Below, one piece after another: positions 9,505 to 36,293 of a stretch of DNA of 36,293 bases; within the stretch, counting starts at the first letter, position 1, and each line of letters begins with the position of its first letter. The notes under the pieces were generated by a model. That model was given only the letters and a program-made list of their open reading frames with translations. It was not told the DNA's origin and did no database searches. The position numbers were made by a program, and so were the translations under genes. Source of the DNA: Phycisphaeraceae bacterium (GTDB lineage: Bacteria; Planctomycetota; Phycisphaerae; Phycisphaerales; Phycisphaeraceae); the NCBI GenBank assembly GCA_028280965.1, contig JANQKT010000108.1, positions 1 to 36,293 of the forward strand, given 5' to 3'.

Positions 9505-9510
9505 TATGAT
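9505..9510 (+). promoter_or_regulatory. TANNNT -10 box of the MBL-fold gene, leaderless-type
   Basis: TATGAT ends seven bases before the ATG at 9518. It overlaps an upstream in-frame ATG at 9506, which argues for 9518 as the start. Confidence 0.4.
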
Positions 9511-9517
9511 CGGCGGC

Positions 9518-10363
9518 ATGTCCCTGGAACTGACATTTTTAGGCACCGGCACCAGCGCGGGTATCCCGATGATCGGTTGCGACTGCCCGATCTGCACCTC
9601 CGCGGACCCGCGTGATCGTCGGGATCGATCAAGTGTTGTCGTGACCTATCCCCGCTCTCAGCCGCCGACCTGCGACGCGATGCCGGACCGGTATACGGTC
9701 TTGGTCGATGCCTCGCCGGACATCCGCGTGCAGGCGATCCGGCATGATCTGAAATGGCTCGACGCCCTGGTGCTGACCCACGCCCACGCCGACCACGTCA
9801 TGGGGATCGACGACCTCAGGCGGTTCAACGCGGTGATGGACCGCCCGCTGGACCTCTACGCCGAGCCGTCGGTGATCCGCTCGCTCGAGCAGATGTTCGC
9901 ATACATCTTCCAGCCGCACCGCAACGTGAATCAGAGCTTTATCGCGCAGCTGCTGCCGATGCCCATCGAGCCGGGCAAGCCGATTGAGTTGGGTGGTGCA
10001 ACCTGGCTGCCGATCAGGCTCATGCACGGCCGGCTGCCGATCGTCGGTTTCCGTGTCGATTGGGCCGGGCGCTCGCTGGCGTACTGCACGGACTGCTCGT
10101 CGATCCCGCCGCAGACGCTGGCGCAGTTGGAAGGCTTGGATGTGCTGGTGCTCGACGGTCTGCGGGAGCGGCACCACCCGACGCACATGACGCTGGACCG
10201 GGCGTGTGCATTCGCTGAGCAGATCGCGGCCGCGCAGACGTACCTGACGCACTTTGCGCACGATCATTCGCACGCGGAGTTGGAACAGCGGTTGCCCGAT
10301 GGTGTTGCGCCATCATATGACGGATTGGTTGTTTCGTTGAGCCACAATGCGTGTCGCGGGTGA
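9518..10363 (+). CDS. MBL-fold metallohydrolase, PhnP-like
   Basis: A 281-residue metallo-beta-lactamase-fold protein. It begins with LELTFLGTGTSAGIPMIGC, followed by a CDCPIC cysteine cluster like the extra zinc site of PhnP-type phosphodiesterases. The metal motif is THAHADH (HxHxDH) near residue 90, and later ligands lie in DCSSI, LDGLRERHHPTH and THFAHDH. PhnP hydrolyses cyclic ribose phosphates in phosphonate breakdown, but there are no phosphonate genes nearby, so the substrate is open. An alternative ATG lies four codons upstream at 9506. The stop codon is inside a long palindromic repeat shared with the convergent rbgA gene. Confidence 0.9.
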   Translation: MSLELTFLGTGTSAGIPMIGCDCPICTSADPRDRRDRSSVVVTYPRSQPPTCDAMPDRYTVLVDASPDIRVQAIRHDLKWLDALVLTHAHADHVMGIDDLRRFNAVMDRPLDLYAEPSVIRSLEQMFAYIFQPHRNVNQSFIAQLLPMPIEPGKPIELGGATWLPIRLMHGRLPIVGFRVDWAGRSLAYCTDCSSIPPQTLAQLEGLDVLVLDGLRERHHPTHMTLDRACAFAEQIAAAQTYLTHFAHDHSHAELEQRLPDGVAPSYDGLVVSLSHNACRG

Positions 10364-10430
10364 CGCGAAGCGTCCCGTACGAACCATCTGTCACACGCTT
10401 TAAAGGGACGCTACGCGTCACCCGCGACAC
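10351..10430. repeat. Long palindromic repeat A, copy 1, between convergent genes
   Basis: Arms of 26 bases (10351-10376 and 10405-10430) match at 25 positions around a 28-base loop. The left arm supplies the TGA stop of the MBL-fold gene, and the right arm ends two bases before the rbgA stop. The arm recurs at 36267-36292 with two changes. It is placed to act as a two-way terminator or mRNA 3' end stabiliser, though without U-tracts. Confidence 0.85.
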
Positions 10431-10432
10431 GG

Positions 10433-23685: not shown

Positions 23686-23728
23686 CATGCCCACGGCGTG
23701 CCTGGTTTGAGGCGTGCCGTGGGATACC
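23686..23728. repeat. Dispersed 43-bp palindromic repeat B, copy 2
   Basis: Arms of 13 bases (23690-23702 and 23711-23723) pair fully in plus-strand RNA if two G-U pairs are allowed. It is the reverse complement of 2572-2614 with 36 of 43 bases identical. It lies just after nuoB in the 3' intergenic space. Confidence 0.75.
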
Positions 23729-23829: not shown

Positions 23830-25245
23830 ATGCGAACCCGACGCCTTCTCGCCCTTTCCCTGTTCACAGTGGCCTGCGCGGGGCTCGGCCTGACCGCCTG
23901 CCACAGCGGGCCCGGATACTACAGCGAGCGTGCCCCTCGGCAGGGGACTTACCGCGCGCCCGAACACCCGCCGACCGACCGGGAGGGGTACCGCCGTGAC
24001 CTGCGTTCGGGCACGCTGACCGCCGGGCACTTCGACGACGCCGACGACCCGCAGCGCTTCGCGGACTGGGCGGACAGCGTCGAGGCGCTCGGCCCGGACC
24101 ACGGCTTCACGCACGGATTCGATCGGCCGGCGATCCAACTCAGGATCCTCAACGAGCACGGCGACCCGGTCCACAACGCGCAAATCAGCCTCATCAGCGA
24201 CACGCGGGGCGCCAACCGAACGATCCGTTCGGGCACGGACGGGCGCTGCGTGGTTCTGCCGGGCTACGACGGCGTTTCGAGCGGGCGGCTGGAACTGACG
24301 ATCATCGCCGAAGGCGCGGGCACGACGCGCCACCGCATCGCTGCGCTGCCCGGGGACCAGGTGGACATCGTGCTTGATGGGGCCGAGGCGCAGCTGCCGC
24401 GCAGGCTCGACCTCGCCCTGGTGATCGACACGACCGGGTCGATGAGCGATGAGCTGGAGTACCTCAAGGTCGAGTTCCGAGCGATCGTTGAGCGCATCGC
24501 CGAGCGTTACCCGCACGTGGCCCAGCGCTGGGCGCTGGTGGTGTACCGCGACAAGGGCGACAAGTACGTCGTGAAGGACTACGACTTTACCGGCTCGCTT
24601 GGCCGCATCGTGGACCGGCTGGGCGATCAGCGCGCGGCCGGCGGGGGCGACTACCCCGAGGCGGTCGATGCCGCGCTGCACGCGGCCAATGAACTGCGGT
24701 GGCGCGACGACGCAGCGAAGGTCGCGTTCCTCGTTGCCGACGCCCCGCCGCATGCGGAACGCGCCGACGAGGCGCTTGCCCAGGCGGGCTGGATGCGTTC
24801 GAACGGCGTTGCGCTGTACCCGGTCGCGTCCAGCGGCGTCAAGGCCGAGGCCGAGCACGTCTTCCGCGCCGCCGCCCTGCTCACCGGCGGGGCCTACAGC
24901 TTCCTCACCGATGACTCGGGCGTCGGCAACCCCCACGCCGAGCCGCACGAGGCACCGCGCTACGCGGTCCAGCGGCTCGACGACCTGATCGTCCAACTGG
25001 TCGAGTCCGAGCTCTCGGGTGAATCCCGCCGGACCAGGCAGCGAGACATCGTCCGGGATGTTCCTGATGCCGACCCGCAGCCGCGGTACCGCACAGCCAG
25101 CGATCAGCAGGTGCGCGCCTGGCGCGACCGCCGGGACCGGCTGACCGAGCTGCTGGGCTCGACGACACTCTCGGACGAGACGGCCGACTCGATCGTGGAA
25201 GAGATCGCGGCGCTGGACCGCAGGATTAGCGATGTGGGGCAGTAG
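23830..25245 (+). CDS. VWA-domain lipoprotein, paralogue 1
   Basis: A 471-residue protein with a signal peptide ending in lipobox GLTAC (Cys24). An N-terminal motif, SGTLTAGHFDDADD (about 60-73), is followed by a small beta-domain with ILNEHGDPVHNAQISLI and TDGRCVVLPG, resembling carboxypeptidase-regulatory (CnaB-like) folds. A von Willebrand factor A domain follows from about residue 195: LALVIDTTGSMSDE carries a MIDAS-like D-x-x-G-S-x-S, then VVYRDKGDKYVVKDYDFT, GGGDYPEAVDAAL and FLVADAPPH. The last two motifs are typical of VWA domains in VwkA-type alpha-kinases. The C-terminus is charged and probably helical. AGGAG lies six bases before the ATG. It sits tandem to a clear paralogue, and both are probably outer surface or periplasmic. 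Function is unknown. Confidence 0.85.
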   Translation: MRTRRLLALSLFTVACAGLGLTACHSGPGYYSERAPRQGTYRAPEHPPTDREGYRRDLRSGTLTAGHFDDADDPQRFADWADSVEALGPDHGFTHGFDRPAIQLRILNEHGDPVHNAQISLISDTRGANRTIRSGTDGRCVVLPGYDGVSSGRLELTIIAEGAGTTRHRIAALPGDQVDIVLDGAEAQLPRRLDLALVIDTTGSMSDELEYLKVEFRAIVERIAERYPHVAQRWALVVYRDKGDKYVVKDYDFTGSLGRIVDRLGDQRAAGGGDYPEAVDAALHAANELRWRDDAAKVAFLVADAPPHAERADEALAQAGWMRSNGVALYPVASSGVKAEAEHVFRAAALLTGGAYSFLTDDSGVGNPHAEPHEAPRYAVQRLDDLIVQLVESELSGESRRTRQRDIVRDVPDADPQPRYRTASDQQVRAWRDRRDRLTELLGSTTLSDETADSIVEEIAALDRRISDVGQ

Positions 25246-25420
25246 GTTTAACCATCCGCTACGCGCCTACATCCAGGTATGGCCTTCCGGCAAGCCTTTC
25301 GCGATCCCATAGAACAAAAAGAGTATTGACGCGTCTACTGGATTGAGGATGATGGCTTAACGCGATCAGCGCGGCTTGCGTGGGCCGGCGGATACGTCAC
25401 TTCAATCGAAAGGGGCCGTG

Positions 25421-27100
25421 ATGATACAACGAGCAAAACGTCGGGTAGGACGTCGCATCGGGATGACCGCCTGCTTGCTGGTGGGCGCGGGCTGCTGGCT
25501 CGCCGCGTGTTCACACAAGCAGGAACTCGGGCCGGTCGTCATCAGCCCGGTGGACAAGGACATCAACGGCGAAGTCATCTCACGGGCCGACCCGGCGGAG
25601 GATGCTCCGCCACGTGGGTCGGGCGGAGCCGCGGCCCTGTTTGACCCAGGCGCGGAGACGGCCGAGTCGTCGGGTCGAGGCGCACATTATTGGAGTGACG
25701 GCCGTGCCGAGTTTAGTGAGGCCTCAGGCGGCAGCGGTGGCGGCTTGTTCGGCGATGATTCGGACGGTGATCGATCGCTCTCGCGGGCTGACGCGGTGCT
25801 CGCCGATGTGGAAGCGACCACGCCGGCAGACGCACCCGGCGCACCGGCGACGGTCGCGCCTGATGAAGCCGGGTCGGCGGTACGTTTCAAGACCGCGCCG
25901 AGCTTCGATCTGCATGACTCTCTGTCTTTGGATGAAGATGAACTGAGCCGAGATCGTGTTCGGGCGGTGGACCTGATCCTTGAAGCTGAAGAAAGCGATG
26001 CCGAATTCGATGAATCGCTTTCGGCCGGCACGCTCACCGCCGGGGTGCTCAACGACTGGCCGGAGCCTTCGGCGTACCGCGATTTCATCGCCAAGCTCGC
26101 CGGTGAGGCTGACAACGTCTACCAGAAGTTCAATCAAGGCCGGACGTTCGAGTTGAAGCTGCTCTCGGAATCCGGCAAGCCGCTGGCGAACGCGGATGTC
26201 CTTGTCGAGGACCAGCTCGAAGACCGCTCGATCATGCTGCGCACGCGCACCGACGGGCGCGCGGTAGTCTCCACGGCCTGGGACCTGCTGGAATCGACCG
26301 AGGACCTGCTGGTCACGGTCAAGCCGATCCGTGGGGGCGAATACACCGTGACGATTGATCCGGACAACCCGGTGACGCACACGGTCCGCGTGCCGCGAAC
26401 GCCCGACAGCCGGGAGGTCGAGATGGTGCAGATCGCGCTGGTGATGGACTGCACCGGCTCGATGGGCGATGAACTGGAGTACCTCAAGATCGAGCTCAAG
26501 TCGATCGCCGAGGCCGTCGCCGCCGCTTACCCGGGCGTCGATCAGCGGTTTGCGTTGGTCGCCTACCGCGACAAGGACGACGCATACGTCACACGCACGA
26601 TCGACTTCACGCACGGCGTCAACGAGTTCATCGAAGAGCTCGGCCGGCAGCGCGCCAACGGCGGGGGCGACGAGCCCGAGGCCGTGCAGCGCGCCTACGC
26701 CGAGGCCGCGGCGCTGTCCTGGGAGGACGGCCGGGTCGCCCGCGTCGTGGTGCATGTCGCCGACGCCCCGCCGCACGAGGAGCACCAGACCATCGCGCTC
26801 CGCGAGATCGACACGCTCCGGTCGCTGGGCGTCGCGGTCTACCCGCTGGCGTCGAGCGGAGCGAATATGCAAGCCCAGTTCACCATGCGCACCGCGGCGC
26901 TCTTGACCGGCTCGCAGTACCTGTTTCTTACCGATGACTCGGGTGTCGGCAACGCCCACGCCGAGCCGTCCGAATCCAAGGGCTACGCCGTGATGCCGCT
27001 GCGCAGCCACCTTTTGCGTGTGATCGCGTCCGAGATCGCGGGCGAGCCGATTGAAGTTGATGAGGCGATGGTGATCCGCCGGGTCGGGGCGACGGGCTAG
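25421..27100 (+). CDS. VWA-domain lipoprotein, paralogue 2
   Basis: A 559-residue protein with a lipobox WLAAC (Cys30) and the same plan as its upstream neighbour. A long acidic, low-complexity region (about 45-200) precedes SAGTLTAGVLNDW, a small beta-domain (ELKLLSESGKPLANADVLVED, RTDGRAVVS), and a VWA domain from about residue 335. The VWA domain carries LVMDCTGSMGDELEYLK, VAYRDKDDAYVTRTIDFTHG, GGGDEPEAVQRAY, HVADAPPHEEH and FLTDDSGVGNAHAEP. The extra acidic region is the main difference from paralogue 1. AAGGGG about six bases upstream and the signal peptide place the start at 25421 although the frame is open to 25376. A TTGACG at 25326-25331 may be part of its promoter. Function is unknown; metal-dependent protein binding outside the cytoplasm is likely. 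Confidence 0.85.
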   Translation: MIQRAKRRVGRRIGMTACLLVGAGCWLAACSHKQELGPVVISPVDKDINGEVISRADPAEDAPPRGSGGAAALFDPGAETAESSGRGAHYWSDGRAEFSEASGGSGGGLFGDDSDGDRSLSRADAVLADVEATTPADAPGAPATVAPDEAGSAVRFKTAPSFDLHDSLSLDEDELSRDRVRAVDLILEAEESDAEFDESLSAGTLTAGVLNDWPEPSAYRDFIAKLAGEADNVYQKFNQGRTFELKLLSESGKPLANADVLVEDQLEDRSIMLRTRTDGRAVVSTAWDLLESTEDLLVTVKPIRGGEYTVTIDPDNPVTHTVRVPRTPDSREVEMVQIALVMDCTGSMGDELEYLKIELKSIAEAVAAAYPGVDQRFALVAYRDKDDAYVTRTIDFTHGVNEFIEELGRQRANGGGDEPEAVQRAYAEAAALSWEDGRVARVVVHVADAPPHEEHQTIALREIDTLRSLGVAVYPLASSGANMQAQFTMRTAALLTGSQYLFLTDDSGVGNAHAEPSESKGYAVMPLRSHLLRVIASEIAGEPIEVDEAMVIRRVGATG

Positions 27101-35771: not shown

Positions 35772-36293
35772 TCAGGATACGGGGCCACTCGCCGCCGTCT
35801 CGGACAACGCCTCCCCGCCCGGTTCGAGCACGCCGCGCACCTTCGGGAACAGCAGCCCCGCCTCGACGAGCATCCAAATCTCCAGCATGATCGTCGCGAC
35901 CGCGATCACGATCAGAGGCCAGTTCCGGTCGCCGGTTTTCGGGTCGCCGGCCAACCAGTCCTGCAGCAGCAGTGTCATCGCCCAGGCGGGCATCACCAGC
36001 ATGAACAGCAGCGGCAGCGCGACGAACCAGATGGCCTTTCCGCGGCGCCAGAGGTAGAAGGTAATGACCATGAACGCGAGCCCGCCGAGCAGCTGGTTGG
36101 TCGCGCCGAACATCGGCCAGAGGATGAGCCCGCCTTTGCCCGCGTTGTCCACTGACCACTCACTTCCAGGGGCCGGCATCGCGGCCATCGCCCCAGCGAT
36201 GATGATCGCAAAGATCGTCGCGCCGTGCTTGTTGGTCAGCCAGGTCAATGGGTCCATCGGATTCAAGTGTCGCGGGCGACGCGCAGCGTCCCG
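35772..36293 (-). CDS. cstA: CstA-type carbon starvation protein, C-terminal part
   Basis: The reading frame is open to the window edge, so the N-terminal part is missing. About 165 residues show the C-terminal end of the CstA peptide/pyruvate transporter family. They include the membrane segments HGATIFAIIIAGAMAAMP, the diagnostic LILWPMFGATNQLLGGLAFMVITFYLWRRGKAIWFVALPLLFMLVMPAWAM, and a last helix IVIAVATIMLEIWMLVEAGLL. CstA imports peptides or pyruvate under carbon limitation. At the edge, 36267-36292 is a copy of palindromic repeat A read in frame as RDAARRPRH just before NPMDPLTWLTNKH. Either the repeat is tolerated as coding sequence, or it separates a truncated fragment beginning at the TTG 36266 or ATG 36257. 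Confidence 0.85.
   Translation of the reverse strand, partial: RDAARRPRHLNPMDPLTWLTNKHGATIFAIIIAGAMAAMPAPGSEWSVDNAGKGGLILWPMFGATNQLLGGLAFMVITFYLWRRGKAIWFVALPLLFMLVMPAWAMTLLLQDWLAGDPKTGDRNWPLIVIAVATIMLEIWMLVEAGLLFPKVRGVLEPGGEALSETAASGPVS
36267..36292. repeat. Palindromic repeat A, copy 2 (one arm visible)
   Basis: Matches the left arm of the repeat at 10351-10376 in 24 of 26 bases. The second arm, if present, lies beyond the window. It lies inside the open frame of the CstA gene. Confidence 0.8.

Follow-up and report, generated by a model that had tools for sequence, protein, structure and literature searches.

Selfish DNA that inserts in frame can give rise to new protein sequence, a route that is rare and debated. 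The closest described systems are the REPINs of the GTAG REP superfamily with their RAYT transposases (PMC3116915, PMC3733652), which were studied in extragenic space by Bertels and Rainey in 2011 (PMC3116915). They are described as inverted doublets in high copy number with GTAG, or one- to two-base variants of it, at the outer end; they are mostly intergenic, sometimes donate a stop codon and are accompanied by a doublet-flanked transposase gene. GTAG repeats in Planctomycetes have been reported and degenerate tags described (PMC3733652), and one RAYT-type transposase class is found mainly in Planctomycetes, Acidobacteria and Proteobacteria (PMC6006769). In-frame intragenic REPs on conserved proteins are known from R. 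conorii, Opitutus terrae and others, including in tRNA synthetases (X. oryzae and others), and two Xanthomonas species carry different REPs at roughly the same point in recB (Di Nocera 2013, PMC3733652). Rickettsia genes carry palindromic RPEs, which are translated in frame inside conserved genes (PMC3733652; reviewed in PMC2229807).

Since in-frame REPs are already known from Rickettsia, Opitutus and others, the elements reported here are not new in kind. What is notable is that different palindromes converge on one linker of the transporter CstA and that one loop of isoleucyl-tRNA synthetase (IleRS) is repeatedly occupied. Compared with the GTAG superfamily, the RAYT is divergent and falls below the NCBIfam cut-off, the hosts are related to Phycisphaeraceae, and in-frame copies occur at the same cstA and ileS loops in several species. 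The present elements differ from the REPs of Di Nocera 2013 in that a single CstA linker region houses five palindrome families and that two genera have the same IleRS loop filled, with tags specific to the host. The main text of that paper, the gene list of its additional file 3 aside, contains neither cstA nor ileS nor "carbon starvation", and among the matches listed in a literature search, mostly from non-subscription journals, no title or abstract opening concerned elements in cstA or ileS.

The window analyzed here, 36,293 bases long, is the entire contig C202 of the source genome (G000, 263 contigs), to which the closest named genomes are MAGs of Phycisphaeraceae and Phycisphaerae. The relevant features of the window are:

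36267-36293, plus strand: a single REPIN arm with the tag GTCG, truncated by the contig end; the remainder of the element is absent from the assembly
35772-36266, minus strand: C-terminal part of a CstA gene, LNPMDPLTW... to the stop, in frame with the arm
10350-10431, no strand: full copy of the same REPIN, lying between convergent genes, with arms of 27 nt separated by 28 nt; the gene at 9506-10363 takes its stop codon (GGG TGA) from the left arm

The original prediction held that the right end of the window carries the arm of a palindromic repeat that is continuous with the CstA frame, and this observation was confirmed. Positions 36267-36292 differ from 10351-10376 at 2 of 26 bases, in agreement with the 24 identical bases first counted, and the full two-arm copy at 10350-10431 folds as a hairpin with a z-score of -9.3 relative to shuffles. 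With up to 3 mismatches allowed, the arm pattern has three matches in the window versus none in 100 shuffles. On the minus strand the arm translates as RDAARRPRH, as predicted, and the open frame runs on into the CstA C-terminus ending at 35772; a stop codon at the edge was looked for and none was there. Position 36293 is the end of C202, and the assembly has no sequence further right. A chance origin of the repeat was dropped on the strength of the shuffles and reversed controls, and an RNA family was dropped as a reading of the element because Rfam had no match in the window at gathering scores.

Across the source genome the arm pattern has 183 matches (92 + 91; reversed control 0 + 0). The stretches fetched from among these contain 85 places, some of them 4-mismatch matches or a related palindrome; 55 of the 85 are inverted doublets with gaps of 22-50 nt, 45 of these having gaps of 26-29 nt. 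Each arm is a small hairpin, GGGYGACGC-GHA-GCGTCCC, with a four-base tag ahead of it. GTCG accounts for 73 and TTCG for 30 of the 134 tags shown for G000. In G003 the tag is GTAG in 6/6 arms of two loci and, counted by eye, in 59 of 65 arms among the matches listed of 147. TTAG was read in 12/14 arms in G002, 35/36 in G013, 15/20 in G018, 6/6 in G001 and 9/9 in G015; the counts for G002, G003 and G018 include their intragenic copies. G001 has 6 arms and G002 has 17. We read this element as a REPIN, a pair of inverted REP arms bearing a GTAG-like tag, that would be mobilized as part of a REPIN/RAYT system. The original prediction had likened it to the RPEs of Rickettsia, and this likeness holds for the way of working: a palindrome inserted in frame in conserved genes, seen directly in cstA of two relatives and ileS of four genomes and probably also in cstA of G000. 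Membership among the RPEs does not hold, since the host is another one, the outer ends are mostly GTCG, TTCG, GTAG or TTAG rather than CGTC, and the element is RAYT-associated; this comparison is one of descriptions rather than alignments.

Most copies land between genes. Judged by our own codon score, trained on 11 genes of the window, 7 of 159 places in seven genomes were flagged as in frame (3/85 in G000 and 4/74 in the others at slightly different thresholds, with G015, G001 and G003 covered by 7, 4 and 3 places), and another 8 of the 74 lie between coding-like flanks but have no open frame running across the element. The seven flags are ileS in G000, G002 and G018, cstA in G002 and G018 and, more weakly, miaB and lipB in G000, where the miaB flag is a related palindrome and the lipB flag an arm with several mismatches; the half element in G000 cstA is additional to these seven. 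These last two palindrome-like, in-frame arms lie at L083:2800-2824 and L105:3024-3048 (contigs C25 and C214 of G000). By eye, the translated frame is that of the left arm (AGDAQRP-like) in cstA and that of the right arm (RDA-like) in miaB.

The neighborhood of the transposase gene suggests that REPINs of this arm family are spread by a RAYT. In G000 a RAYT gene (C177:834-1424), 56% identical to the RAYT of G015, sits between doublets at C177:726-820 and 1443-1542, and the RAYT genes at G003 C198 and G015 C38 likewise have a doublet on either side. The proteins from G015 and G003 reach 48.9 and 60.1 bits against NF047646 (REP_Tyr_transpos, cut-off 80) and 22.1 and 29.8 bits against PF01797 (cut-off 23). 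Since they fall below the NF047646 cut-off, the name RAYT is taken from the neighborhood and not from the model. PF01797 is present in 14 genomes, and among 30 loci scanned for the arm, doublets were found only at G003 C198 and G015 C38. No doublets flank the two PF01797 matches in G000, where the RAYT was found only by protein query. RAYT relatives also occur in G004, G013 and G018, with no arm doublet in the scan at the G018 place and at one of the G013 places, and G001 and G002 have few arms and no close RAYT relative. The link between arm number and RAYT is loose, as G047 has two partial RAYT matches and one arm match, and G002 carries an in-frame cstA element and no match to the G000 RAYT.

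Our main reading, to which we assign a probability of about 0.87, is that a REPIN spread by a RAYT has inserted in frame in cstA and is tolerated in the CstA linker, as it is in the IleRS loop. The arm at the window end would be one end of this non-autonomous mobile hairpin, located in the cstA linker of a bacterium related to Phycisphaeraceae MAGs. The doublet very probably preserves the frame, and its translation would add about 27 residues, R[VL]AGDAQRP...RDAARxPxx. The CstA fragment in the window matches positions 476-558 of the Pfam profile PF02554 (E 1.3e-11). A search of the source genome with PF02554 gave the front, 3-473, on contig C122 and the end, 476-558, on C202, with no further match at E 0.001. 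The front part on C122 finishes in frame with ...ATTGACCACTCCCGTGTCGCGGGGG, and the terminal sequence of that contig, CCCGTGTCGCGGGGG, is the start of the opposite arm and reads ...DHSRVAG in the CstA frame. Ending in the opposite arm in this way, C122 most likely marks a point where the assembly broke inside the palindrome. Of the 85 element places read, 12 are no more than 100 nt from a contig end versus 0.7 expected by length, which explains the break of cstA and is a warning that real genes may be split at REPINs by contig ends in such genomes.

One alternative, named in the original prediction, is that the REPIN broke the gene, so that C122 has its front and the C-terminal fragment in the window is dead. 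The middle of the G000 element is missing from the assembly, so that continuity across the gap between C122 and C202 spans an unassembled stretch, and when the G000 doublets are read on their strands, no more than 15 of 110 readings leave the CstA frame open (95 are closed); a frame-shifting copy is thus possible. Against this, both G000 arms share the phase of those in G002 and G018, and the C-terminal part differs from G003 mostly at third positions (27, 12 and 57 differences at codon positions 1, 2 and 3), although a very recent break would give the same picture. The dN/dS of the C-terminal part against four relatives is 0.18-0.36, that of the N-terminal part 0.19-0.27; the resulting picture of purifying selection on the former, like that on the latter, disfavors a dead fragment. 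We consider a broken gene unlikely. It is even less probable that C122 and C202 are not neighbors at all, each ending in a REP at an unrelated site so that the halves are complementary only in look: REPs are indeed common at the contig ends of this assembly, but PF02554 found a single front and a single end with nothing else at E 0.001, and the two contig ends carry opposite in-frame arms. The predicted placement of the repeat in frame inside a CstA gene is supported, by the two halves in G000 and by the unbroken cstA of two relatives, and the G000 element is probably continuous.

Two relatives have an unbroken cstA with a full in-frame doublet and no stops: G002 (Phycisphaerae isolate 4_bin.8, JAUHZU01) with RLAGDAQRPATETRSATPRDAARHPLN and a gap of 28, and G018 (Co_bin.173, JAUIGU01) with LAGDAQRPAGVAGAEARDGTQAGTRDAARRPLN and a gap of 49. 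Folded as single strands these have z-scores of -11.7 and -8.8; both genomes are low-coverage MAGs (3.6 and 2.0). In other genomes different palindromes fill the region. G003 has family B at the same place (19 + 17 matches in G003). In G001 family C (CCCACG-N9-CGTGGG; 121 places in G001) lies ahead of a zinc-ribbon-like motif and family D, TAACGCACGGGGGT/ACCCCCGTGCGTTA (7 + 4 matches in G001), after it; family C also has 38 places in G002, including one in cstA. G036, G028 and G032, from another family of the order, carry longer, partly palindromic inserts of family E (31, 5 and 16 matches), which split two zinc knuckles in all three. Together, families A to E occur in the CstA linker region across eight genomes.

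In a set of 100 CstA reads, several of which are the same record twice, the linker ranges from 15 to 181 residues. Filled linkers measure 84 residues in G002 and 83 in G018, and that of L147, without a strong palindrome, measures 81. Given this range and the near-filled length of some palindrome-poor linkers, finding homologues of equal length that lack the repeat, which the original prediction took as an argument against an insertion, does not decide the matter. Such variability could also suggest that the insert is an ordinary variable linker that resembles a REP by chance. We regard this as scarcely credible, because families A, B, C, D and E are long inverted repeats present in multiple copies in the same genome, while reversed controls give 0 to 2 per genome and strand. 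Two further CstA linkers, L133 and L195, contain in-frame hairpins, CCCCTCTCCC/GGGAGAGGGG and CCCTCTCCC/GGGAGAGGG, with the linker peptides PSPPTPLPRGEG and NPPSPKGRG. The zinc-ribbon-like motif CxxCGYDLTGN...CPEC is at L035:1810-1866 in the G000 linker (C122:6309-6365), and this part of CstA has short matches in many other frames of the relatives.

In a model of the G002 CstA (mean pLDDT 81) the element corresponds to residues 559-585, and the low-confidence residues 558-567 and 569-581 are almost wholly within it, in a loop flanked by helices 481-518 and 595-610; the low pLDDT may partly reflect the few alignment rows that contain the insert. The element falls in a hydrophilic linker after the zinc-ribbon-like motif and between two helices. 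Most likely the insert adds a floppy loop that does not kill the protein, and its effect would be nearly neutral. Intragenic insertions would persist only if an open frame runs through the element and the loop can accommodate the added residues; the CstA linker and one IleRS loop would be such places, probably occupied more than once.

In IleRS a single in-frame arm follows ATEQWFVGVDK in G000, G003, G002 and G018, the G003 copy having been located by gene search, outside the count of 7/159. The arm was found in 4 of the 30 genomes read (ileS was matched in 46/46 genomes) and is absent from this site in the sister genome G001. The identity of the G002 gene is supported by TIGR00392, and in a model of its product the arm forms residues 470-479, a coil between two strands. 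The single arm in G000 ileS folds little better than shuffled sequence (z-score -2.2, with 5 of 200 shuffles as good). In G013 ileS (L336), GCGAAGCGTC is present at the same site in a loop of 38 residues, which has 30 in G001 and several others; by eye this is perhaps a decayed REP, and it was missed by the 5-mismatch arm scan.

The filled genes were rejected as one clade for cstA (p-AU 3.3e-6, 21 rows) and for ileS (p-AU 2.3e-65, 14 rows), and with this the spread of a single filled allele in either gene was discarded. At least three state changes are needed in each tree, a number that does not tell gain from loss. The second ileS tree covers 14 of the 30 genomes read; in both trees other rows were dropped for speed or distance. 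G000 groups with G001 and G002 in the 30-row ileS tree (80/47, weak) and with G003 in the 14-row tree (87/86); the deep part of the cstA tree is unsure owing to long branches. Either insertion at these sites has happened repeatedly, or old copies are maintained in step with the other REPs of the genome.

One possibility is a single ancestral insertion in each of cstA and ileS, followed by descent and several losses instead of repeated insertions. The ileS copies share codon and frame in four genomes, G013 has the possible decayed remnant GCGAAGCGTC, and the minimum of three changes in both trees would fit losses as well as gains. However, the elements are less diverged at third positions than their flanks: 8/10 are invariant in the four ileS copies versus 184/591 in the flanks (23 of 484 ten-codon windows of ileS reach 8), and 15/16 between G002 and G018 cstA versus 396/664. 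Moreover, intragenic copies carry the tag common in their host genome, an agreement that is weak evidence taken alone, since it involves one or two bases and a GC-rich codon bias would also favor GTA to GTC. Old copies would then have to be homogenized with the REP population or constrained as DNA, and we find ancestral insertion possible but doubtful. A tentative reading, at a little short of even odds, is that REPIN populations have durable landing pads in the cstA linker and the IleRS loop, reoccupied or refreshed by conversion, in which the copy tracks the REP tag of the genome and families replace one another in cstA. This would amount to concerted evolution of a coding sequence with a selfish repeat population. 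Filled, empty and differently filled states of the same loop can be compared across related genomes in a transporter and an aminoacyl-tRNA synthetase. Such comparisons make it possible to ask whether these insertions are neutral passengers, whether REPs prefer certain sites and whether intragenic copies are homogenized.

Other repeats were also observed in the window. Two inverted copies of 43 nt, at 2572-2614 and 23686-23728, each contain a hairpin CCCACGGC...GCCGTGGG that is like family C. The neighboring frames 23830-25245 and 25376-27100 each contain a version of a 158-nt sequence (24413-24570 and 26433-26590) at 75% identity, which looks like a tandem duplication.
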